Below are positions 31,001 to 64,000 of a DNA stretch of 64,000 nt, piece by piece (position 1 is the stretch's first letter; each line of letters opens with the position of its first letter). The translations under genes and the position numbers were made by a program. The notes under the pieces are model-generated. The model was not told where the DNA came from and made no database searches. It saw only the letters and a list, made by a program, of their open reading frames with translations. This DNA is from Sphaerolaimus hirsutus (Eukaryota > Nematoda > Chromadorea > Monhysterida > Sphaerolaimidae): the NCBI GenBank assembly GCA_964036195.1, contig OZ038452.1, positions 21,959,785 to 22,023,784 on the forward strand, given 5' to 3'.

Positions 31001-34000
31001 GCCCCTGGCCACTTTACATCCTGGACACTTTACATTCTTCCACAACGCGACAGTTTACATCCTATGGTACATTCTGTAGGAAATTGTGTGTCTGTTGTAC
31101 TTGAACATTTTCAGTTCGATTTCAATTCATTTCCCACTTGCCGCACAAATCAAATTCCGATGCATGCCAATACCTTTGTGCCAATACCCATGCTGATTTT
31201 GTGGAGCCATGGATGCACTAAATTTTTCACGTCTGTTGCATGACCCTTGAATGCAAAGTGTGCAAAAAGTAAAGGGTGATACATTCTTTTTACCTGTTGT
31301 TAACAGGTACTGTGGAATGTAAAGTGTCCAAATACAGAGAATGTGAACTGACTAGGATGTGAACTGACGCTAGCTCACTATGGTGATGTTTATCTAAAAA
31401 AATTCTTGGAAATCACCTCATGCAGTAATTCAATCTGAAGACTAATTTTATCATTCCATCACTGCTCCCTCCCTCGCTCACAGATTCGGTGCCGTGGTTC
31501 CCGAAACGCATCAGCGAGCTGGACGAGTTCGCTAACAGGGTGCTGTCCTACGGCTCCGAGCTGGACGCCGACCACCCCGGCTTCACCGACAAAACTTACA
31601 GGGAGCGCAGGAAGGAGTTTGCCGATATTGCCATCAATTATAGACAGTTCGTTTGTTTGATCACTGAATTTGATTTCATGAACTTAATTTTCAGTGCGCC
31701 GTAATTGGACCCCTACAGCATCTGGTGGCTGTTGATGGAATGGCACCAAAATGCGTCATAGATAGTGGCGCTTGGCGCCCTTTTATCTGCTTCCATGTAG
31801 TAAAGCAGCGCCTTGTCGTTGAAATACCCCTCGTCCTTCGCCTCGTTTTACCCCCCGCCCCCCCCCCGAGGGGTATTTCGAGGTTAGGTATATTCACCAT
31901 CCTTCCCTGTGCCCTTTCGTGTCCGGCGCGATTTTCTTGGGTAGCTCCGTGGCGAACTTTGGCACTCATCGCCAGTTTCCGGACTACCACGTTTCTTTAT
32001 GGCGCTTTTTTATGTATACACTCACCCCTTTTCTCCCGCAGTGGCCAACCGCTTCCAAACGTGGAATACAGCGATGAAGAAATCCAAACATGGCGGACGA
32101 TCTACGACGAACTTATAAAGTTGTACCCGACGCACGCGTGCGCAGAGTTCAATTTCAACTTCCCACTGCTGCAGACGAACTGCGGCTATGGCAGGGATTG
32201 CATACCGCAACTCAGGGATGTCAGCAGATTTTTGAAAGGTTTGGGGATTGGTGGATTTTTGGGTGTATATTTCTGGTGGGGTGCTATTTAGTTCGCAGTT
32301 CTATGCATTTTTGATTGTTTAACAAATGACAAGTGACAATGTCTTTGAGGCCTCCCCCAGGCACACTTGTTGACAACAGAAATTTTCCAAACATATAAAT
32401 AGGTAGACGATAAATCCGTTTTAACCACATTTGTAGAGTTGTTAATAGTACTGAACTTTTTCAAAGTAAATGTAAATGTAAAGTATTTGCTTTTCACTCA
32501 ACAATGAGTGCAGTAAACGTAAAGTACAATTTTTTTGCATTTACCGTACTCATGTATAAACGTGAGTAAAATACTTTTTTTTCATTTTTAAAACGTAAAA
32601 GTGAGTAGTTTTGAGAAAATATACAGTCAAAATCGGTAATTTTCGAACTTTTTTTGCCAATTTTCACCATCTAATTCACTAGTTCATCTGCTTTTTGCCA
32701 AGTTTCAGCTATTTTTGACTATATATGTGCTTAGGTTTACAAAATTGTGACTTTTTTCCCCACTTTGAGCTTCTTTCTTAGTTTTTGTTCTTCTATGCCT
32801 TGAAAAAGTGGTATGAATGCCTATATGAAATACGTTTTTTGTACTTGCGTACTTACAAAAAGTACACATGTAAGTGAGTACCGGTATTTTTTGGGAGGAA
32901 ACGTGAACGTATTTACACTGTATAATACACGAGTATACCATAGTTGTTAAAACGTTTTTACTTTTTCTCGATAAATACATACCGTATTTCCTCGAAACAC
33001 CCCCCCCCCCCTTGAAATACCCCCCCCCACCCCTCGTTTGACCCCCCCCCCCCTCTCGAGACCACTATGAAACAATCACCCCCCCTCGAAATACCCCCCC
33101 CCCCCAGATTGAGTGTAAAGAGAACGTACATGACAAATACTGCAGTTTGTGTTCTGCGAAGTGCAGAACACACGTTTAAAACGAGTAATGTTGGAATCAC
33201 GTGAGAACAGTGTATATACCATCTACGTAAATACTAATATTAGTATACAGGAGTTGATACATGTCAGTTATTGATGCATTGTCTACCCCAGCGCACATCA
33301 CAAACCACGATTTTTGTACTAGGATTTCAAAAAACTTCCTGTGAAATAATAACCCCCCCTCGAAATACCCCCTCGTTTAACCCCCCCCCCTCTCGGGAGC
33401 ACTATGAAACAATCACCCCCCGGGGGTATTTCGAGGAAATACGGTATACTCGAGTACTAAGTAAATACATTAACGTTTCCTCCAGAAAAAAAACCGGTAC
33501 TAACTTATTCGTGTATTTTTTGAAAGTACGCCAGTACAAAAAAACGTATTTCAGAAAGGCTTTTATATTGGATTTTTCAAGGGGGAAAAAGGGAGAAAAA
33601 AGCTATAAAATAGGTAAAAATATCCAAAAATACCTTTAAAAGAAGGCAAAGCGCATTAACTTGTGAATTTGATGTAAAATGTCATGAAATTATAAAATGT
33701 CTGGCGAAAAAAGGAAGAAAATTGGCGATTTGCATGACACTTTACTGTTGAACAGGGACTGGATGTGCGCCCGGTCTTCGCACAGTAAGATCCAATCAGC
33801 TGTAACTTGAGCTGTAATAAGATTAACAGCTGTAACTAACTGCAAATACATGTCAGACTGCACGGGCTTCACTCTGCGACCAGTGGCCGGTCTTCTGTCA
33901 TCGAGGGACTTTCTCGCCGGGCTGTCTTGCCGCGTTTTCCACTCCACCCAGTACATCCGCCACCCCAGCAAACCGATGTACACCCCAGAGCCGTGAGTTA

Positions 34001-51402: not shown

Positions 51403-53397
51403 TACCCAAAACTGGTAATAAGTGTGAACAAACAGGATATATCTGTACAGATATAGGATATATCTGCACAGACTAGTATATGTGTGGCTGCGATGTAATT
51501 TGGAAGCAATTAATACATCATGCACATTGCATACATGATGTAAACTGGTGGAAAATATAAATGAGAAAATCACTTTATTGTATTTTACAAATCCCACATG
51601 CAACCTGTTAGGCTCTCATCTTGTGTGAGGGTGCTCCCAAGTATTTACTATATATACCCTAGGGGGCAGCACCCTCAGGCCACCCTTGCTGCAGAAAAAA
51701 AAGTTTTTCCACATTTTTTCTGGAAAATATAAATGAGAATTCATACAAATTTTTGTTCCTGAAGAAATTTATATTTTTAATATCTTTTTTTCTGGACATT
51801 TGAGACCAAAAAGTTCTTTTCACATTAGAAGATTGTAAGTATGTTTTACTTTTCTACCCCATCAGAACCCCCAGAAGCCCCACACAATGATGGCGTTGTT
51901 GATCAAATCCAAAAAATATTTTTGAGAAAAACATACGTTTGAAAAGGTGGACAATCCACTATCCCAAGCTATTCATGGAGCACATGGGGTCCAGAATTGG
52001 CTCGCTCAGAGTCAGGGGCAACATATGGCTGCTCCTGGGCCCCGTTTTTGCACTTATGTATTTTTTATAGCAAATGATAAAAACAGCCCTGTGTAAAGAG
52101 GGCACTCGCGTGACAGCGTGTCCAGCACCTGCAGTGTCGTGATGCAAATTACAAAATACTTGTGCCCATTCAATGTAGGCACTAATTATCTGATAAAAAC
52201 CTGTAGGGGCCAATGGCCAATGTGCCCTGTATCTAGTGTGAGTGGGCCACACAAATAAAGAGGTCATGTCCAGAAAATCAAAAATCACAGTTTTTTAATC
52301 ACAACCACAATTTAGGTAATAACAAAGTTTAAAATCATTGTTGACGTGGCTCCGTGGCACATGTCTGTATATCTGGGGTGATTTTTGTGCAGGGGAGTGG
52401 GCAGGGGGTCAAAATATACCCCCTAATTACCAGGGGGTCAAAAGATGGCTTTGGGCAAGCCACAAGGACTTTTAATTTTTTGAAAAAGCACCAACACAAG
52501 TGTATTCATCACTCGTGTTGTAACCACACCAAAAAATGGCTGCACACTTCACCACAACTATATTTTGTGTGGTTTTTTAAAAATTCTCATTTATATTTTC
52601 CGGGAAAAAATTGGCAAAAAATCTTCATCAATCTGTAGCAGCAGAACAGGGGGGTGCCATGGGGTGCCACTTGGCATATGTGTAGGCAAATGTTGTGGGC
52701 ACCCCCACTACAAATGGCAGCCATATTGGGCTGCACGTTTTACTGTGAGATTGTTATGAAAAATGAGGTACCTGATTTCTCATTTAAATGTGCCACCAGT
52801 TTACATCATTCAAAATGGGCTTTTTGAGGGGTTTTCTATTACGTCAGGTCCCTCAGATCCAGGGTTATTTCGACAGGCAGTGTCAATTCGAGGGGGGTTA
52901 ATTTGAGGTCATACAGTATGCTCTTTCGCATAGGGAAGTTAAAATCACATCCTTAACCAGAGTTAGGTTGAATTTCATTGACATGAATTTTGATGTAAAC
53001 TGGTGTGTCAGCCCAACGTCATGACGTTTGAGACAACACACATTTTTAAATTTCTTCTTTCTTTTAATTTTAATCATGGTGCAATTCTGGTGCCATTCAC
53101 ATGGACAATTCACAAGTCGTCTCCAGAACGACCTGTGCATTGTCCAAAACGAACTTTAAAACCTTCTGCTCACTATGTTTAAATGGAAAACAAATTTATA
53201 GTTTTTGCCAGTTTCATTGCTGAAGGCATTTTGTTTCTTTAAAGCATGCGTTCCAGTTTGCCAGTGCACACAGCTTAAATGCGTTCGCACCCGGAGCCAA
53301 CGTATACATCAAGCACAATTAATCCACCTTTTCCACAAATAATGACCCGGGTTCCTAAATACTCAATCAAAAAAGTCGGTTAGTTTTCCCAACGCTA
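51403..53397. other. Intergenic, no gene seen
   Basis: AT-rich, with a short CCGTATTT-type relic near 52850-52920 (GGTTATTTCGACAGGCAG). Apart from isolated repeat words I see no exon, RNA gene or element with clear ends. Confidence 0.5.
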
Positions 53398-53487
53398 GTG
53401 GCGCGTGTGGCTGCGCATCGACCGGCAGTGAGCTGTTGCCGCCGCGGCTACTACGCGGACATCGCGCTGCCGCGGCGGCAGTAAAGT
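53398..53487. other. GC-rich island, unassigned
   Basis: Ninety bases including GCGCATCGACCGGCAG and CCGCGGCGGCAG, each a possible splice-acceptor-like end. Could be an exon or promoter-proximal CpG-rich DNA; no convincing product. Confidence 0.2.
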
Positions 53488-54032
53488 AGGCCAATTTATT
53501 GCTATTTTCATCATTTGGCAATCGCCTTCGGGCTGTGCTGATATTATTCTATCAATATTGAGTAGGTGAGTAACTATTTGAGTCTACTGACGACATCTTC
53601 AGATAGTAGAATGCGTAAATTATTGAATTCAACTCTTTCTCGAATTCTCTTTCTCTTGATGCTCGATTTTCAACGGGCACAGTGAAAGTGAAAGCGTCTG
53701 CAAAACATACCCGCGTTGAACGATTTCTGACAGTTTTTGTGTATAAATATCATAGAACTGTAATTTCATGTAGGTATGTACGCTTAGCTAGGTATACTTA
53801 TTAAGAAAGGCACGTGCACTTCAGATGTTCACTTCGAGGCTATTTGTTCTCTCAAGTACTACTTTCTCACCTTCCTAGCTGACGTTAAGCGCAGTGGAGC
53901 ACATTTTGTTCGTAAAAAAACTTAGGTTTAATCTCGTACTTAGGTATTTCTTTGTGTAGAAACCTATGCAAACAGTGTTCTTCTGTTGTTCACTTATCAT
54001 ATGGTAAAAACATCCAAATACCCTAAATGGAA

Positions 54033-54152
54033 TACCGTATTTCTTCTAATAGAAGAGCGCCGTTCTATTTTTTTCGTCAACTTTTTTACCTGCCGTTCTA
54101 TTGGAGGTGCCATTCTATTGGAGGTATGCCGTTCTATTAGAAGAAATACGGT
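54033..54152. mobile_element. CCGTATTTCTTCT MITE with AATAGAACGGC core
   Basis: ATACCGTATTTCTTCTAATA to TTAGAAGAAATACGGTA, flanked by TA. The best-preserved copy of this family in the window. Confidence 0.88.
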
Positions 54153-54570
54153 ACCCTAAAAAAGTCAACTGAAACTGACTCAGTCGACAGTTTGACACTC
54201 AGTGGATTTTAGGTCTGCCTGTTACAGCGAGCTAAAATCATTTATTAGCTTTGTCATTTGTTCAAAAACACTTCCACAAATATTCAGTTTACTGAAAAAA
54301 TAAGTTTACAGAATGGACTTGTGCATCCACCAAGGGTGGAAAATGCATAATTTAAAAGCCAATTTCAAATTTATGACTATCTATGCCTTTAATGTGATTA
54401 AAGCTCCTGTCTGCTTCATGTCTGTTCAGAACGCTTGGGATTGAATTCATTTTGTGCGTGCTTTGCATTCTCATGTGTCATGTGCCTTGAATTTTTGACC
54501 GGTGACCGGACTATTAAAGTAAAAAGTAGTTGGTATAGGTATCTCTGATATTGGAATGTGAGGTGTACAG

Positions 54571-55105
54571 GTGTCACTCCCAACCGTGTAAAAGACCCTG
54601 TAAAGTGTAAAAGACCCTGTAAAGTGTAAAAGACCCTGTAAAGTGTAAAAGACCCTGTAAATTGTGAACTATCCTGTAAAATGTCATGTGGCATGTAAAG
54701 GACCCTGTAAAATATCACGTGTCATGTAAAAAAAACACTGAAAAATGTGTCAAAGATCCTGTAAAATATCACTTGTCATTTAAAAAAAACACTGAAAAAT
54801 GTGTCCAAGACCCTGAAATGTGCCACGTGTATCCAAATCTTATTTTATCATATCTAAATATTATGTTCTGTATCCAAATCTTACTTTTTGACATAATATT
54901 TAGACACAAAAACATAAGATTTGGATACAATGAAATAAGAATTGGACGCACATGACACTTTACAAGGTCTTTTACATGACACAAAACATTTTACAGGGTT
55001 TTGCATGACACATGACATATTACAGGGTCTTTTACATGACACATGGCATTTTACCAGGTTTTTGACACTTTACAGAGTCTTTACAGGGTCTGGGAGTGCC
55101 TCCAG
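54571..55105. mobile_element. Long member of the GGTGCCAGTCCC hairpin family
   Basis: Left CAGGTGTCACTCCCAACCGT, right GGTCTGGGAGTGCCTCCAG. AAAGACCCTGTAAAGTG repeats on the left mirror CTTTACAGGGTCTTTTAC on the right. The middle (54830-54930) has inverted TATCCAAATCTTA words. Confidence 0.8.
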
Positions 55106-55363
55106 ATTGAACAGCGTAATCCGGGGATGTGTAATCCGACTTTGTGGCTTGTGAGATTTGACACAAAATGTACATCACTATTTCAATTGGAGCAGTGTGG
55201 TAACACACTTAACGCAAAATGGAATGTGAAACGTTCCATGATGAAATGAATTAAAATGATGCAAATTACGTTGCCAGAATGTAAAGTGATTTATCCTTTA
55301 CTGAACGTGGCCACTGGCGCTGTTGGCGCCAGCGCCAGAGCGCCCACCTTTTTCCAATATACC

Positions 55364-55680
55364 GTATTTGCTTGAATAATCCCCATGGGGGATTATTATT
55401 TCCTCAAACTTTTTTTGAGGGGGGTGACTATTCGAGGGGTGGGGTGTTATTTCGTCAAAATTTTCGAGCATGTTTCGATCAAGTCATTTCACGAAATGTG
55501 CATCATTAACACAATGTGCCATTTTTGTTAAAATTAAGCACAACGAATTGATCAAATCTCTTAAGGGGGAATTATTCAAGGGGGGCGGGGAATTATTTTT
55601 TCCTCACTCGTTTCACAGGGGGGGCGGATTATTCGAGGTGGGGATAATTCAAGGGGGAACTATTCAAGCAAATACGGTAA
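55364..55680. mobile_element. CCGTATTT-ended element with GGGGAATTATT core
   Basis: ACCGTATTTGCTTGAATAAT at the left, ATTCAAGCAAATACGGTAA at the right. Shares its core with 23427-23870. Confidence 0.8.
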
Positions 55681-55961
55681 TCCCAGTGCACCGCGCGCTC
55701 ATATCAATGCGGTTGGGGGCTACGCACTGCGCAGAGCCACGCTTGTCACATTCAGCCGGACGGCGCATGTATTTATTTATCTGGCCGCTATGTCGCGTCC
55801 GCTCCGCACTACGCACGTTGTGTTGTCAAGCGGCAAGATGTATGTCAAGATTATACAATGCATTGTATATTTTTAGCTACCTAGGTAATTCAAGGTTGAC
55901 TTGGTTTTGTTTTTGACGTGGCGGCTTATTTGTGTTGGGTAGGTAAATAAATATGAGCGTT

Positions 55962-56168
55962 CAGGTGCAGTTCCGCAAGTGGAGAAGCGAGAAGTAAAAT
56001 GGCAAAACCGAAGTAAAAAAGTAAAAGTAAAAAGTAACTTCTTTTCACTTTGCCATTTTACTTCTCAATTCACTTTGTCATTTTACTTCTCAATTAACTT
56101 CGCTCTTACCCTTTCACTTCGCTTGTGCCATTTTACTTCTCACTTCTCTACTTGCAGAACTGGCCCCA
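55962..56168. mobile_element. GTGCAGTTCCGC-ended hairpin MITE
   Basis: CAGGTGCAGTTCCGCAAGTG at the left and CACTTCTCTACTTGCAGAAC then TGGCCCC at the right. The interior is GAAGTAAAATGGC and its complement. Sister subfamily of the intron-forming hairpins. Confidence 0.8.
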
Positions 56169-56948
56169 AGATTCTGCGCGCTCGCCTGATCACAGAAACA
56201 AGATACAGAAAAAACGTCCACTTTCATCAATTGTCGTGAAACTTGTGTAACTTTCTGAATCCTCACCCCACATGACATATCGCTTGGCAAAATTTCGAAT
56301 TCAATCCGGCACCTGGAAATGTATCCAGCGTGCGCACGCCGGAGCTAATGGCGGTCGCTTGAAAATGGCATACATACACTTTTTCGGAATGCATTCAATC
56401 CACCCTCTGGTGGCAGATTCAATTTGAACGTAAGGCGCATGTAAGGCGCCAGAGAGACGGGTAAGAGCTGAAATCGTTCGCGCTTGCTATAGCGCCTTGC
56501 GCCTTAACTGCACCCTACGTTCTAATTAAATCTGGGTCCTGGTCGCACTATTTGAACATGCTAATGAACTCGCCCGCCGGGCGCAGATTGCATTTAGGTA
56601 TTTATTTGTTTTCAACAAAACACGAGGATTGAATTGTTAACGTCCGCGTGCGTTTTTGCCTAACATAATCGCTAGCGCGCGAATTGTCTGCCGTTTTGTT
56701 AGATGTGGGAAGCGTTTTTGTAAAGGTATCATGGTTTTAATGTTTGTTTTCATTATTTCGAGATTTGTGGAATTTGAATGCATTTGTTTGTTTGCCGTGT
56801 GAAAATTATTATGCATGGCATTTTATTAGGCTATTTCTGTGCTAATGTTGCCGCTTCTGTGTTTACTTTTTGTCAAATTGTGTGCTCATAAATCAGCTTT
56901 GAACGTGTTCGAGTTTACCAGAATGTGTTATTTTCAATCTTTAACGTT

Positions 56949-57178
56949 CTTTTTGTCGCTGCACACACTAGTTTACTTTCACCAGTAAACTTAACTTTAA
57001 GTACTCATAAATCTACTTTGTACGTATTTCAAGCTTTAATTTTGAGTTTACCTTGTAATCCCTGTCAACTGAAGATTACAAGGTAAACTCAAAATCCAAC
57101 TTAAATACGTTCAAAGCTGATTTATGAGCACTCAATTTCGAGTTTACTGTACTTTTATTAGTAAACTAGCGTGAGCAG
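56949..57178. mobile_element. CACACTAGTTTAC-ended foldback MITE
   Basis: CACACACTAGTTTACTTTC and GTAAACTAGCGTGAGC ends; CAACTGAAGATTACAAGG and related palindromic centre. Confidence 0.75.
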
Positions 57179-57190
57179 TGTCATCCTGGT

Positions 57191-57415
57191 GCCAGTTCCG
57201 CAAAATGAGAAGTGAGAAGTGAAATGGCAAAGGCGAAGTAAAAGCGCAAAGGCCAAGTGAAATGGCAAGTGAAATGGCAAAAGCGAAGAGAAATTACTTT
57301 TTTAAGAATTTTTTTTACTTTGCTTTTGCCAATTCACTTGCCATTTCACTTCGCATTTGCGCTTTTACTTCGCGTTAGCCATTGACTTCTCACTTCTCAT
57401 TTTGCGGAACTGCCC
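57191..57415. mobile_element. GCCAGTTCCGC hairpin MITE with 6-bp duplication
   Basis: GCCAGTTCCGCAAAATGAG to CTCATTTTGCGGAACTGCCC, flanked by CCTGGT on both sides (57185-57190 and 57416-57421). Core GAAGTGAAATGGC repeats. Non-genic copy of the hairpin superfamily. Confidence 0.85.
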
Positions 57416-57949
57416 CCTGGTAAACCTAAGTACGTTCAAGGCCAATTTATTAGTTTACAAAATCCGAGTTTACTGGCAGTAAACTAGTGTGCGAAGCGCC
57501 AATGTGACACCAGTCTGAGACAAATATTTTCGTGCACTTTCCGAATGTGTCAAATGCAAATAGCAGTAGCAATCGTCAATTCTTGTTATCGTTCTAATCT
57601 GGGCATATGCATATTCTAAAATTCCCGCTTTTTCGTCTGAGGCTTTTTTGTTTTGTTCTTGAAGCCTCGTTCCATTTTTGCACAAACTATTAAAGGAGGC
57701 TTAATTAAAATCTTTAATATTCAAGGAATGCTTCGACGGTTCTTGAAAACTTTCGCGATATTAATTACGAATTACCGTATTGCCTCGAAATATCCCAGGG
57801 GGTTCATGATTACGCCACAAAATGGGAATTGGAGGTTGCTTATTCGAGGGGGTATATTTTTATGAAATTCCAGTAACTATTCATTGTTTGTAAATTGTAA
57901 CATAAATAATACTACAAATGTGGACGCGGACAAATACAATACCTAATAC

Positions 57950-58310
57950 TGTATTTTTTCTAATAGAATGTCATACCTCCAATAGAACGGCACCTCCAAT
58001 AGAACGGCACCTCCAATAGAACGGCACCTCCAATAGAACGGCACCTCGAATTGAACGGCAGGTTTTGGCATTATTGCATTCACGAAAACAATAGAACGGC
58101 AGCCTCCAATTGAACGGCAGGTATCTCGAGGGTGGGTTTATTATTTCTCCAGCTCGTACAGACCTGGCTGGGGATATTTCGAGGTGGGGTTAAATTAAGG
58201 GGTATTTCGAGTGCGTTAAATCAAGGAGGATTTCGAGGGGGTAAAATCAAGGGTGTATCTCGAACGGGGTTTATTCCAGGGGGTGGTACTTTTAGGGAGT
58301 ACTGTACAAG
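57950..58310. repeat. AATAGAACGGC MITE next to a GTATTTCGAGG repeat
   Basis: Six AATAGAACGGC units (57965-58115), then GGTATTTCGAGTGCG-type degenerate repeats to about 58310 ending GGGAGTACTGTAC. Confidence 0.65.
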
Positions 58311-58468
58311 TGGATCAACTCTTCAAACATGCATCGAACTGATGAAATTATTAAATATCGCGCCAGATGCCAACCCGAGAACAATAGATCCATCGCGCAG
58401 ATTTTCAATCCACAATAACTATCCACATTTCACTTTGTGCACTTTTTACCGCACACATTGGCTGCCAG

Positions 58469-58514
58469 CGAGGACTACTTGCACCAGCAGCAGAACATCG
58501 ACAAAACCACATTG
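58469..58514 (+). other. Possible small exon upstream of the galactosyltransferase
   Basis: Between CTGCCAG and GTAACT lies a 46-base open stretch reading EDYLHQQQNIDKTTL. It ends in phase 0, which would fit a further candidate exon at about 59011-59217. No family match; could be chance. Confidence 0.25.
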
Positions 58515-58730
58515 GTAACTGGTCTGTTCCAAAAGTTGTAGGACACGGCGCCGGAAGACACAGTGAAATTATCAGATATTCTGATTTCTCCTGCAGAGAT
58601 AAATGTGTCTTGAATGTGTCTATCAATTCAATCGTTGAATTCCGTATTTGTACCCATTTCCGCAGCTGTGGCCATTTTTGCACATGGGTCATAATTTAAG
58701 GAATAAGTTAGACCCTTAAGGTCATAGACC

Positions 58731-58883
58731 TGGGGGCAGTTCCGCAAATTGAGAAGTGAGATGTAAAGTGGCATAAGCGAAGAGAAATTACTTTTTCTTT
58801 TTATTTTTTTCACTTCGCTTTTGCCAATTTATTTCGCATTGGCCATTTTACTTCAAACTTCTCAATTTGCGAAACTGGCACTA
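58731..58883. mobile_element. GGGGGCAGTTCCGC hairpin MITE
   Basis: TGGGGGCAGTTCCGCAAATT at the left, AATTTGCGAAACTGGCAC at the right, hairpin interior GAAGAGAAATTAC. Confidence 0.8.
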
Positions 58884-59010
58884 GAAAACATATATTTGTA
58901 ATTTAATTTACATTATCCGGCCGGCAAATGACTAGATATGGGGATAAAATCTCAGTTAGTAAAATATTTAGTATGCTAGTTAGCGCGCGCACACTATCTT
59001 GGCCCTGCAG

Positions 59011-59217
59011 AAAAGTTTGCACCAGACCAGTCCAAACCCAATCTCAAAGATAACTCAACGCGCTCAATTAGCCACCACAACTTTTGGAACACCCCCTTGT
59101 ACATTGTCCGGCTCTGTGCTGGGGGCGGTCGGGGGTCCGTGGAGGGCGGCCGGCCCTGGGACGTGGGCGGCGGCGGAGGGCCCTGGGGCGGGCGTCGCCC
59201 GTCTCGTCGGCTACCAG
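59011..59217 (+). CDS. Candidate 5' exon of the galactosyltransferase (uncertain)
   Basis: A GC-rich segment (from about 59100) ending ACCAG just before the hairpin element. In phase with exon 59412-59564 it reads GPGAGVARLVGYQ at its end and lacks a methionine, so the start must lie further upstream. It would encode part of the cytosolic tail of a type II Golgi protein. Codon evidence is ambiguous because several frames are open and GC-rich. Confidence 0.4.
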
Positions 59218-59411
59218 GTGCCAGTCCCAGACCCTGTAAAATGCCCTGTGAAATGTCAAATGTCACGCAAAGTGTCAAAAGTCATGTAAAATGCCCTAGA
59301 AAATGGCAAACGCGTTTGCCATTTTGCAGGACATTTTACACGACTTTTGACACTTTGCGTGACACTTGACATTTTCCAGTGCATTTTACAGGGTCTGGGA
59401 CTGCCCCCCAG
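59218..59411. mobile_element. Hairpin MITE forming an entire intron (introner-like), copy 1
   Basis: 194 bp. Begins GTGCCAGTCCCAGACCCTG right after exon sequence ACCAG; ends CAGGGTCTGGGACTGCCCCC then CAG before the next exon. The two arms pair along nearly the whole length around AACGCGTTTGCC. CCAG stands at both edges (59214-59217, 59408-59411). The element supplies both the GT and the polypyrimidine-AG. Confidence 0.8.
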
Positions 59412-62400
59412 TTGCCCGCGCCGCGAGGCTGGTACGACGGCGGCGGCAACGGCAACGGCGGTCGCGCCCGGGCGCCCTGTCTGCGCTGGTGCTGCAGACC
59501 TTGCTGCCTGCCCAACTTGCTGCTCGTGCTGCTCATATTGCTTTTCGCCGCCGCTACTGTGCAGGTTGGATTTGGGCTGTCGCTTTATTCGTTTTGGAAA
59601 GGGCTTTGTGCGACTGCCGTATTTCTTGTAATAGAAGGGCGCCGTTCTGTTGTTTCTTAGATTTTTGACCTGATGTTCGGTTGGAGGTGCCGTTCTATTT
59701 TTTTCGTGATTGCAAAAATGTCCCGAAACGTGGCGTTTTATAAAAGGTGCCGTTCTATTAGAAGAAATACGGTTGAAGAACTCGTGTATTCTCACGCAAA
59801 TTACAAAAAACGTTTAATATCAAATCTAAATGCCTAAGCATCTGGCAGCATTTTTAAAACCAAAATCTGAACGCAGGTGGCCCTGTTCCACTACTACGGA
59901 ACGGCGTACGCGATGGGCGGGGCGGGCGGCGCGGCGGACGCGGCCGACACGGCGCTGCTGCTGCGCACCGGCGTCCTGCCCGGCATTCTCAGGTGTTTTT
60001 TGGGCGGAGAAAATAATGATTGATTTTTGGGTCAAACTTGATTCACGCATCCTCGATATTTTTATGCGGACATTCGTGAGGATCGTAACTGTGCGGCCAA
60101 GTGTACACAATCCGTCGTATTTAGGTTTTTTTTCGCTGGCAGATATTTATGCATCAAAATTGATCATTATGGGCGCTAAAAACTTTTAGTGCGTAAACAT
60201 TTCCTTGCAGCTAGAATCGTTTCCGTCCTTTCATACATGTGCGAAAGGGAGTCACACAGGCAGGCAGATGGAAGTTCAAAAACTTGAATTTGGTAGATAA
60301 AAAAATCGTCATTGCTTAAAATATGATATTGATAGTGTCTAGCGTAATGATAGTGCTATTGTCAATCGACGGTATCAGTTGCGGAAACATTTTGAGTGTT
60401 CTACCGACTCGGTGAGAGGCGCCTTTGTAAATCCACTTTTGGAATATTTTGTCAGCGTCAAAAAATTTAATTTAAATTTTCAAAATGGCACAGAGCGGCG
60501 GGGCGGCCGCAGCCGCCCGTGCGGATCAATCTACGCGAGTTGCTCAGCAAAAACGTGCCCTCGATTGAGCATAATTACAGGTGGGTCAGACGAATTTTAT
60601 AAACTGAGTATTTTGCTCTGAGTTAAGTTGATCATCATTAAGTTACCTAATGCTTTGAGTTGAGCTCTGGGTTAAGTTGATCAAGTTTAATATCAGCGGT
60701 AAAATGAGCACAGCAGTGGGAATCTTATGTTTATTGAGCACAGACTTGGAAAGAAGTTCCAGCACCATAGCGCCATTCGTATTGATGAGTGGAAAGCTAC
60801 AAACAGCGCCCGATTTTTCTGGCGCTACTGAGCACTGATCAATAATCATATTCAAATTTGTGTGGTAGGATCCACGAAGACACAGAGTTACCCGACCTAG
60901 CCCGTACACCGCAGAGAGTTGCTGCAGTCTAAAAACGAGCGCCGCATCAACGAGATCATCACCGCGGCCAGCACATCGCAGTCGGCAACCGGCGTGGGGG
61001 ACTCGGTGCTGCGGCGCTGCGAGAGCGTGCCGCCCGAGCTGCGCGGCCGCACGGCGCTGCACACCGGCGGCAACGACTCGGCGCAGCACTTCGACGCGGC
61101 CAGCGGCACCGACGACCAGTTGGCTGCCGCCGCGCTGCTGAACGGCGACAATGTGCTGCCCGGCGGCAAGTGGCAGCCCAGCCATTGTGCCGCCAATCAC
61201 CGAGTTGCCATCATCGTTCCCTACAGGTGTGAACAGTAACTTCCTATGCTATGTGAATCGGCCATTTTATGACATTTCATCGAAAAGCTATAAAGTAAGC
61301 ATTATGTGGTGCAAAAGTCATGCTTAGAACCCATTCTAATGAGGTATTTTTCCAGCACCATTTCTCAAGCTCCGCCCACACAGAGACCGGCATGCGCATT
61401 TGGCCACTTTGCTGACGCATTTGCACCCGATTCTGCAGCGGCAACTGTTGGACTACCAAATCTATGTGGTCGAACAATTTGGCAATGACACATTTAATAA
61501 AGCCAGGATAATGAACATTGCCTTTGTTAGCGCGTTGCAACAGAGGGACTGGGATTGTTTCATATTCCATGATGTGGATTTGATACCCGAGGATGATAGG
61601 AATATGTATTCTTGTCCGGAAATGCCGAGACACATGAGTGTGGCCGTGGATGAAATGAACTATAGGTGCATTGGGAATGCTACAAGATGTCCAAATAGTT
61701 CCAACAGTTGACAGAATGTGCACTATAAAAAGAGACAAGTGAAATAAAAAAACATTTCCTGATGTTTTTTTTTGTCAAAGTTCTCAAAAATTATCAATAG
61801 TGCCAGTTAAAAAAGTCCTGACATATCCGGATCAATGCTAGATGCTTTTTCCATGTTTGACAAAATTGTTTTATTTTGAACTTTTGAAAACTGGGCGCCG
61901 TTCAGTTTCTGTAAATTCGCAAAAAAAATCAACATAGTCAGCTTTCACATCTTTACGCCAGATATCTTTTCCCTCAATTACCCCCCCCCCCAATCAGAAT
62001 CCCGTACGAGCAGCTGGTGGGCGGAGTGTTCGCGCTGCGCACGGAGCACTTCATCCAGGTGAACGGCTACTCGAACCTGTACTGGGGCTGGGGCGCCGAA
62101 GACGACGACATGGCTTACAGACTGCAAGCGGCCGACTTGCCCATCACCAGGTGCCAGTCCCAGACCCGGTAAAAAGCCCTGTAGAATGTCAAATGTCATG
62201 CAAAGTGTCAAAAGTCATGGAAAATGCCCTGCAAAATGGCAACCGAGTTGCCATTTTGCAGGGCATTTTCCATGACTTTTGACACTTTGCATGACATTTG
62301 ACATTCTACAGGGCTTTTTACACGGTCTGAGAGTGGAGCCAGGCCGCCGCACGCCGTCGCCAGGTACACCATGATCAGGCACACAAAGAGACCTGCGATG

Positions 62401-62414
62401 GATGGCCGAATTAG
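59412..62414 (+). CDS. Beta-1,4-galactosyltransferase family enzyme, 3' end beyond window
   Basis: Type II Golgi glycosyltransferase that transfers galactose (or GalNAc) from a UDP-sugar to GlcNAc-type or xylose-type acceptors. Exons: 59412-59564, 59877-59992, 60494-60580, 60915-61226, 61384-61665, 61998-62150, 62343-62414; phases agree. Exon 59412 has a Cys-rich tail (CLRWCCRPCCLPN) and a membrane anchor (LLLVLLILLFAAATVQ). A stem follows (PPVRINLRELLSKNVPS). The catalytic domain shows KWQPSHCAANHRVAIIVPYR, LQRQLLDYQIYVVEQFGND, FNKARIMNIAF, the metal-binding DVD in CFIFHDVDLIPEDDRN, PRHMSVAVDEMNYR, VGGVFALRTEHFIQVNGYSN, YWGWGAEDDDM and YTMIRH. The last exon ends in a donor (GTGGGT), so the C-terminus is missing. 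I cannot choose among B4GALT subfamilies. Two introns are transposon hairpins (see 59218 and 62151). Confidence 0.95.
59617..59773. mobile_element. AATAGAACGGC-core MITE in galactosyltransferase intron
   Basis: GCCGTATTTCTTGTAATAGA at the left and TTAGAAGAAATACGGT at the right, inside the intron 59565-59876. Confidence 0.8.
62151..62342. mobile_element. Hairpin MITE forming an entire intron (introner-like), copy 2
   Basis: 192 bp. Begins GTGCCAGTCCCAGACCCGG after ATCACCAG and ends CACGGTCTGAGAGTGGAGCC then AG. The arms pair around AACCGAGTTGCC. CCAG lies at both edges (62147-62150 and 62339-62342). Removing exactly this segment joins LPIT, Arg and PPHAVARYTMIRH, which is the conserved order of the galactosyltransferase family. 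Confidence 0.93.
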
Positions 62415-62443
62415 GTGGGTTTTGGGGGTAGGGTAGGGGGGAT

Positions 62444-62813
62444 TACCGTATTTCCTCGAAATACCCCCGGGGGGATTATTTTTTCAGAGTGAGAATTTTG
62501 AAAGGGGGTTAAACGAGGGGGGGGGGTATTTCGAGGGGGGGGGGTTTATTAATTCGCCAGAAATTTTTTGAAATCCCAGTACTAAAATGTCGTCTGAAAC
62601 GTACGCAGACGTCGAAAAATGCAACAAAAATCACCATTTATAAGACTCTAAAGACATTTATAAGTGTGTAGACGTACAAACACTGTTCTCACATAACAGA
62701 GTCATCGTTTTTAACGTGTGTTCTGCATTGCCAAGATGACAAACCGCAGCCTTTGTCATTTACGTTCTCTATACACTACATTTGGGGGGGGGGTATTTCG
62801 AGGAAATACGGTA
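62444..62813. mobile_element. CCGTATTT-ended element with CGAAATACCCC core
   Basis: TACCGTATTTCCTCGAAATA at the left and TATTTCGAGGAAATACGGTA at the right, TA on both sides. Unique middle about 62560-62770, shared with 32981-33446 and 39003-39456 in inverted orientation. It lies 30 bp after the last visible galactosyltransferase exon. Confidence 0.85.
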
Positions 62814-63661
62814 TTTGAGGTTGGGTAGAAGGGTTAGATATGGCACTTTTGTATTGCATGCGTACTTTGAATGATTGAGTGAAAGACAGCAAATACAAGT
62901 TATCCACAGACAGAATCACATTCACACACTGACATATTACTTCAATTATTGGCTCGTCTGAGGTTTTGGCAATACACTAGCGGCCAGAATAGTTGAGACT
63001 CTCCACCATTGTCTCATAAGGGAAATTTGTTCAGGTGAGGTCCGACTGTGTTTGCATGCACGTCACTCCTTAACCGCTGAGCGAAAATAGTTGGTATTTC
63101 AATATAATGTAATTTTATGTCGGGGCTAACGTGAAAATCGATGGAATTTTTATATGACTACCCTGACCCGAGATATGGTGGGTCTGAAAAAAAGTAAATT
63201 TTTCTTAAAAAAATTGGGTGTCGCCCAGAAATAACAAAATGTGCATGTCAATAACTTGTTCATTTGCCGACCGATTTTTGTCAATCAACTTTTAAAAGGA
63301 TCACAAATGATTGGAGAGTTCATTTTTGAGGTCAAATCGGTGATGTAGAATTGTGCATATATCGATTTGCGGTTATTGATACACGGCATGATTGATATGA
63401 AAGGCAGAAGTTTGAAATGCTATAACTTTTGATTGGTATAAGATATCGATCTGATGTTTTCGGTATTGTGTTTCTCTCAATCAATAGTATACGATAGCAT
63501 GTTCAGGAAAAAATATTTTTTGTGTTGAAAAAATGGTCAAATCGGCATACGATATTCATACATCACTAATCTGACGTCAAAATTAGAATCTTCAGGTTCT
63601 CCCCATCATTGTAAGAGTTGAATGATCCAAATCGGCCCAGAAATGGCCAAGTTATTAAGAC
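62814..63661. other. Galactosyltransferase intron or intergenic, nothing recognised
   Basis: AT-rich DNA. The expected next conserved exon of the galactosyltransferase is not found here, so the intron probably continues past the window. Confidence 0.5.
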
Positions 63662-64000
63662 TTCGCTTCGCTTAGGACCAAACCTCCCTTGTTACAAAAA
63701 AATTTTTTGCGTTTTTTTTCATGGATTTGGAATCTCCATAACTAGAAACTTAAAATTTCCTTCCATGCATATATCTGGAAATGTCATCTTCCTACTGAAA
63801 AATTGATCAAAGTCAAAAGTCACCATTTTTCAGGCTTTTTTTTGGAAATTCATAACTTTTGTTTGACTTTATCTATCAAAATAATATTTTGTATTTTTAT
63901 TAAGAAAGTTGTGGAGATTAATTGGCCAATACAAACTAGTTTCATCAAATGTTTTTTTCTCAATGAAAATGCAGGCTGAAATTTTGAAAATGGCATCAAA
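63662..64000. repeat. Dispersed repeat, near-identical to 36949-37330
   Basis: GCTTAGGACCAAACCTCCC onward matches 36949-37290 in the same orientation with few differences, and is cut by the end of the window. Confidence 0.9.

Follow-up and report, generated by a model that had tools for sequence, protein, structure and literature searches.

How new introns originate is an open question. The comparisons with published systems made here draw on excerpts of the articles cited. According to those of a survey of 3,325 genomes that worked from annotated introns (Gozashti et al. 2022, PMC9860276), introners occur in only two animal groups. The element described here was found in a 64,000-nucleotide stretch of DNA from the nematode Sphaerolaimus hirsutus, referred to as the window. 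Like the introners in the survey's excerpts, it probably derives from a transposon, has inverted repeats and a target duplication, and would leave the exon exactly restored; like the Chrysochromulina introner described there, which makes a 4-bp duplication, it would obtain one splice site from the element and the other from the duplication. What sets it apart from the introners of those excerpts is its CWG target, a hairpin that is almost perfect, a rule of orientation that depends on one of its tips, and putative TG-ended copies.

Other systems share single features with it. The excerpted text on Amoebophrya (PMC7789003) reports introners with widely varying splice motifs and a failure to detect U1; hairpin introns, direct repeats of 3–5 nt at the borders and the occurrence (here predicted) of introns without GT-AG are common to both, while in the present family there is a GT tip (fixed by our selection of copies), the ending varies in A/T only and U1 genes are present. 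The nonconventional introns of euglenids, as excerpted from PMC4770533 and PMC6221363, likewise have a stable RNA structure uniting the intron ends, but are described there as lacking conserved borders, unlike the fixed GTGCC tip and the animal host found here. A TG acceptor, in our case a predicted one, is shared with the human TG 3' splice sites, which in the excerpts of PMC2374985 are always alternative sites beside a nearby AG and never act by themselves; at our CTG-flanked copies, exact exon restoration would depend on TG as the only acceptor. Among transposons, NuwaI of the PHIS (PIF/Harbinger-related) superfamily makes CWG duplications and has tips that usually begin with GGG (PMC4482050, in excerpt). 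The 3-bp CWG duplication and an animal host are found in both, and the right tip of the present element, GGGG in consensus, may correspond to a NuwaI tip. The present element has one GTG tip and is a non-coding hairpin of ~190 bp, and the excerpts on NuwaI do not mention use as an intron. Among the open-licence articles listed by our searches, we recognised no report of this combination of features. The element is very probably an introner, in this case a hairpin-forming MITE (a non-autonomous DNA transposon) whose landing would make a spliceosomal intron.

The predicted galactosyltransferase intron

The beta-1,4-galactosyltransferase gene was modelled with eight exons (59097–62414, Table 1) that form one open frame after intron removal; the start of the first exon is arbitrary and homology support for this exon is absent. 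The protein resembles invertebrate galactosyltransferases, and the COX1 of the host reads with the invertebrate mitochondrial code 5. Among the 120 best of 7,999 COX1 matches, identity is 91% to one contig, 82% to another and 68–71% to named arthropods and a priapulid. The original prediction had proposed that 62151–62342 is an intron of this gene, consists of exactly one hairpin transposon, and leaves an uninterrupted conserved protein when excised. Excision of this segment, together with the six other introns of the model, indeed gives DLPIT-R-PPHAVARYTMIRH in a single frame and restores the domain: the joined protein matches Pfam Glyco_transf_7N with 175 bits and Glyco_transf_7C with 101 bits, the latter match (residues 305–382) spans the focal junction, and the junction is gap-free in the two alignments examined to solved galactosyltransferases. 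The segment starts with GTGCCAGTCCC, ends with GGAGCCAG and is 94% self-complementary over 62154–62336; folded as RNA with 10 bases of each flank it reaches −163.4 kcal/mol (z = −25, 200 shuffles).

The GT was rightly attributed to the left end of the element, whose GTGCC tip comes first at 62151. The AG had been assigned to the right end of the hairpin; it lies within the second CAG target copy and is therefore not the transposon's own end. The 192-nt intron stands as a prediction, but it is made up of a 189-bp element plus a 3-bp CAG copy rather than of the hairpin alone. The duplication that had been read from CCAG at both edges holds for CAG, the first C being a preferred preceding base (63 of the 112 copies dissected below), and where the duplication had been expected to supply part of the splice site, it actually gives the entire AG. 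The focal intron is in all likelihood an introner insertion.

The nearest relative of the focal element in the window is a second copy (88% identity over 186 bases), which the original prediction had overlooked. Like the focal one, it has an open exon of the gene model on each side, and it looks like another intron of the galactosyltransferase gene. Two paralogues of the gene, located ~11 kb apart on contig C14, have the introner at the identical site. In one of them (L002), 191 of the 192 intron bases are the same as in the focal copy, with four synonymous and no other changes in 225 coding bases, while in the more diverged one (L006) 178 of the 192 intron bases are alike and the frame is open across the junction.

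Other fates of the segment were also considered. Retention in the message was rejected on account of in-frame stops, which would occur at the 7th codon of the focal segment, at codon 24 of the copy at 59218 and within 12 further copies when the frame of the Pfam match is followed (for a 13th copy, L114, the check did not follow that frame). Splice sites inside the element (GTAAAA..TTTACAG, picked by hand on the consensus) would leave ~37 nt of it and shift the frame, and the focal copy is without the inner ACAG.

Table 1 Features of the window, with positions counted from its first nucleotide
Feature	Position	Strand	Details
Galactosyltransferase exon 5' of the focal intron	61998..62150	+	
Galactosyltransferase exon 3' of the focal intron	62343..62414	+	
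Remaining model exons	59097-59217, 59412-59564, 59877-59992, 60494-60580, 60915-61226, 61384-61665	+	
Predicted focal intron	62151..62342	+	192 nt, GT..AG, phase 2; splicing predicted
Focal hairpin element (putative introner)	62151..62339	+	189 bp, GTGCC tip first
Target duplication, copy 1	62148..62150	+	CAG; would remain exonic
Target duplication, copy 2	62340..62342	+	CAG; source of the AG
Second element copy	59218..59408	+	CAG at 59215-59217 and 59409-59411; predicted intron 59218-59411, galactosyltransferase gene
Diverged longer relative (~500 bp)	54571..55102	+	CAG at 54568-54570 and 55103-55105; surrounding coding sequence not noticed
Second hairpin family	57189..57416	+	GTGC and GGGG tips; CTG on both sides
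Second hairpin family	58733..58881	-	Edges CTG and TAG
Second hairpin family	55965..56166	+	Edges worn
CCGTATTTCCTCGAAATA- and CCGTTCTATTAGAAGAAATACGG-rich repeats	33440-33500, 54030-54150, 55360-55680, 57770-58290, 59610-59770, 62440-62815		All approximate; by eye

Anatomy and target of the element family

The genome searched comprises 348 Mb on 762 contigs. The original prediction had suggested a genome-wide search with the element. A search for its exact left end returned 3,357 places beside CAG or CTG, and the genomic copies have the form GTGCCANTCCCAGACC ... GGTCTGGGANTGCCCC between CAG or CTG on either side. Exact left ends adjoin CAG in 1,794 cases (932 + 862) and CTG in 1,563 (788 + 775), exact right ends on the element strand adjoin CAG in 1,364 and CTG in 975, and the backward-pattern control gave 0 for all four end searches. 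For dissection, we took the places at the head of the lists for contig C1, 70 with CAG and 60 with CTG; 18 of the 130 were dropped (right end or second CWG not found), resulting in 112 copies (59 with a left CAG and 53 with a left CTG). These copies were chosen by an exact GTGCCA tip, so that the GT of the left tip is set by selection, while the right tip is not.

The preferred bases around the target in the 112 copies were A at −2 (45), C at −1 (63), G at +1 (61) and T at +2 (47), which places the CWG within a palindromic ACCWGGT; as this target is palindromic, no strand preference is expected for insertion. The arm consensus, built from 89 copies of 140–215 bp, is equal over the first 39 positions except for tip positions 2 and 4, with GTGC at the left tip (fixed by selection) and GGGG at the right (consensus of the 89 copies). 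Since the tips are unlike, a GT donor is available in one orientation only. As a separate observation, GTGC tips are present at both ends in 4 of 162 mined elements, as if a near-palindrome had been corrected.

The two target copies read CAG/CAG in 51 elements, CTG/CTG in 38, CTG/CAG in 15 and CAG/CTG in 8. W thus differs between the two copies in 23 of 112 elements, with a skew towards CTG/CAG (15 vs. 8, P = 0.06) in which some of the eight CAG/CTG copies are perhaps misread. We would have expected fewer such mismatches from drift, and our guess is that an imperfect palindrome was corrected.

The family is short, non-coding and present in high copy number, with inverted repeats and a target duplication, as is characteristic of MITEs, and similarity reaches both intron edges in unrelated genes, as is characteristic of introners, the edges being those read from domain continuity. 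Of the three hairpins outside genes that had been named as relatives, the one at 54571 is a diverged member (71–78% matches to the focal element, in short stretches only), while those at 57191 and 58731 belong to another family with GTGCCAGTTCCGC tips, for which the genome contains 493 exact left ends next to CAG. Like the introner family, this second family targets CWG, and its tips show the GTGC/GGGG asymmetry. The CCGTATTTCCTCGAAATA- and CCGTTCTATTAGAAGAAATACGG-rich stretches are apparently further repeat families. Rfam gave nothing at gathering scores within 53000–64000, and an exact 23-base pattern searched with a viral origin in mind was unmatched among viral contigs.

Orientation in coding sequence and conserved domains

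A codon model trained solely on the galactosyltransferase was used to score both strands of repaired sites that have ≥ 22 open codons to the left and to the right (72 sense and 70 antisense locus-strands). Within the sample, L050/L051 and L071/L072 are near-duplicates and the pairs L077/L078, L049/L114 and L121/L122 apparently belong to one gene each. A score above 9 was reached by 29 sense and 2 antisense strands, so the copies are GT-first in 29 of 31 cases (sign test, 2e-7). By target, the sense/antisense counts above 9 were 16/2 for CAG/CAG, 10/0 for CTG/CTG and 3/0 for CTG/CAG, with none for CAG/CTG. The bias is weaker at lower cut-offs (32/5 above 6, 40/7 above 3, and 46/14 above 0). One of the two antisense cases, L076, scores 12.4 in antisense and 11.9 in sense and has a Pfam match on neither strand. 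An extra sample chosen by the CTG right end (8 loci, 7 dissected) added two sense scores above 9, L167 with 28.6 and L173 with 16.5; the opposite strand of L167 scores 11.8, and here the Rcd1 match decides for sense. Taken together, the strand bias, the symmetric target and the near-symmetric arms indicate that exons tolerate the element in one orientation but not in the other.

The 29 coding junctions fall in phase 0 (22), phase 1 (2) and phase 2 (5), and ribosomal bypass is unlikely given that all three codon phases occur. The arms of the coding copies have a median divergence of 0.14, compared with 0.20–0.25 in the others, and because they are less diverged the coding copies may be younger than the other copies.

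Sense peptides (n = 33), picked by codon score and by eye, were compared with Pfam at E ≤ 0.001, together with 17 antisense peptides (the seven best plus the ten next best among loci without assignment, some of them skipped). Pfam matches were obtained for 14 of the sense peptides, in 12 of them through the junction, while the other 19 had no match at this cut-off; none of the 17 antisense peptides had a match, also at E ≤ 0.05. At CAG/CAG sites the match runs through the junction in L088 (Cation_ATPase_C) and L049 (Oscp1), crosses it by three residues only in L040 (LRR), and lies beside it in L078 (cadherin-like) and L098 (calpain), while at CTG/CAG sites it runs through the junction in L147 (cyclin) and L121 (CHGN). 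Seven CTG/CTG junctions lie inside Pfam matches, all GT-first: Rcd1 in L167 (122 bits over 73 residues, gap-free across the junction), and, each spanning the junction, Oscp1 in L114 (63 bits), Xan_ur_permease in L148 (47 bits), CHGN in L122 (42 bits), E1_dh in L146 (25 bits), the 7TM family Srx in L144 (25 bits) and CBS in L125 (21 bits, under the Pfam cut-off). Judged from domain continuity, conserved coding domains are thus exactly interrupted by copies of the element.

L049 and L114 are 0.8 kb apart and match adjoining stretches of Oscp1, and L121 and L122, 1 kb apart, match two parts of CHGN; these two pairs imply that apparent single genes hold AG-ended plus TG-ended copies. Beyond the Pfam names, we take the element-bearing loci to include genes for AMPK gamma, CNOT9, BCKDHA, SLC23, cyclin Y and tyrosinase. 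The MITE-type introner that had been proposed is the best reading of the high-copy inverted repeats, the 3-bp CWG duplication and the exact interruption of conserved domains in one orientation. That reading is incomplete, however, as CTG-flanked copies seem to act alike without an AG. It also does not extend to an acceptor taken from the target, to the rule of orientation or to conserved genes with putative TG-ended copies.

Predicted acceptors, removal and transposon affinity

In a GT-first pre-mRNA of the form CWG/GTGCC...GCCCCCWG/ (slashes mark the predicted splice sites), the hairpin would draw both ends together, the GT of the tip would serve as donor and the last two nucleotides of target copy 2 as acceptor, and removal of the element with one CWG would restore the original exon exactly. 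A CAG target would provide an ordinary AG acceptor, as in the focal intron, and a CTG target would result in a GT-TG intron, in which case conserved genes with CTG copies would imply that the host removes TG-ended copies too. That the animal constitutively splices TG-ended as well as AG-ended introns is a proposition to which, going by sequence patterns, we give an even chance.

It is possible, though somewhat doubtful, that the elements are introners of which AG-ended copies alone are spliced exactly, the CTG/CTG copies being harmful or silenced alleles or being spliced to a later AG with loss of residues. Genome-wide, AG is more common in the 3' target copy (1,364 of 2,339) than in the 5' copy (1,794 of 3,357; P = 3e-4), consistent with AG being slightly advantageous, and in the ten CTG/CTG coding loci the next AG follows 4–60 nt downstream (≤ 28 nt in eight of the ten, where an AG may therefore assist in the first step). 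The excerpted report on human TG acceptors, which places them solely beside an AG (PMC2374985), points the same way. Against this, the 10 to 0 bias of CTG/CTG copies above a score of 9 is expected only if such copies are removed, and the use of the next AG would lose conserved-domain residues or shift the frame. TG-ended copies are also not scarcer in coding sequence than elsewhere (10 of 29 vs. 36 of 83, P = 0.5), and the arms of coding CTG/CTG copies are as diverged as those of coding CAG/CAG copies (medians 0.139 and 0.137).

The donor GTGCCA fits the donor consensus poorly, which counts against splicing of the introner by the usual route. This weak donor, the strong hairpin that unites the ends and the lack of need for an AG at CTG/CTG copies would all suit a non-spliceosomal removal from RNA that reads the structure and the tips, as proposed for the nonconventional introns of euglenids and for Amoebophrya. 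We regard such a removal as unlikely: the reverse orientation, which forms a nearly identical hairpin, is almost missing from coding exons, the fixed difference is precisely a GT at the tip, and U1 genes are present in the genome (25 matches over the cut-off). Splicing would see the GT/GG difference between the tips, while DNA excision or hairpin recognition would not, and from this we infer spliceosomal removal. Excision from somatic DNA, which would keep the element out of RNA altogether and which resembles clean transposon excision in its exact target restoration, is most improbable, since gene strand should then not matter (yet it does, 29 vs. 2) and the elements are present in the assembly. 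Transposons commonly insert into introns, but the idea of an old intron later hit by a hairpin transposon is most improbable, as nothing of an older intron is left outside the element and the duplicated target, and copies fit from edge to edge in unrelated genes as well.

As to the origin of the introner itself, the element resembles a miniature NuwaI transposon in its sequence features, and we infer that the GT tip derived from a GGG tip; a G to T change at the second base of one tip would be a possible step turning a NuwaI-like element into an introner. The genome has 163 matches to DDE_Tnp_4. When L161, L164 and L165 were searched for an autonomous partner, the introner tips were not found as element ends. 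Many of the DDE_Tnp_4 matches (e.g., L161–L163) have near-identical scores and take up ~630 bp per 147 profile positions, mostly with four TGA inside, which suggests that these transposase genes contain an intron or insert. At L164 (G000:C1:28876200-28880600) and L165, a DDE_Tnp_4 transposon occurs in two places that are 99.8% identical over 3,850 bp, and given this identity it is probably recent. Next to an open frame, at ~3678–3875 of L164, this transposon contains a related hairpin whose edges are CTG and CAG.

The family suggests a simple route to new introns, with one GT tip, a symmetric target and an orientation rule that is readable from the genome alone. With CAG and CTG paired as targets, AG and TG acceptors can be compared for one and the same element within conserved genes. 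If the host does splice TG-ended as well as AG-ended introns, a substitution of one or two bases in a single tip would be the step by which the transposon family came to generate introns. The many copies, each a hairpin that draws its ends together, would in that case amount to a natural experiment, with internal controls, on the requirements of the spliceosome at the 3' end of an intron. If RNA confirms the exact removal of TG-ended copies, the rule that TG is never the sole acceptor, as given for human in the excerpts of PMC2374985, would fail in the host species, and annotation that demands an AG would overlook such introns.
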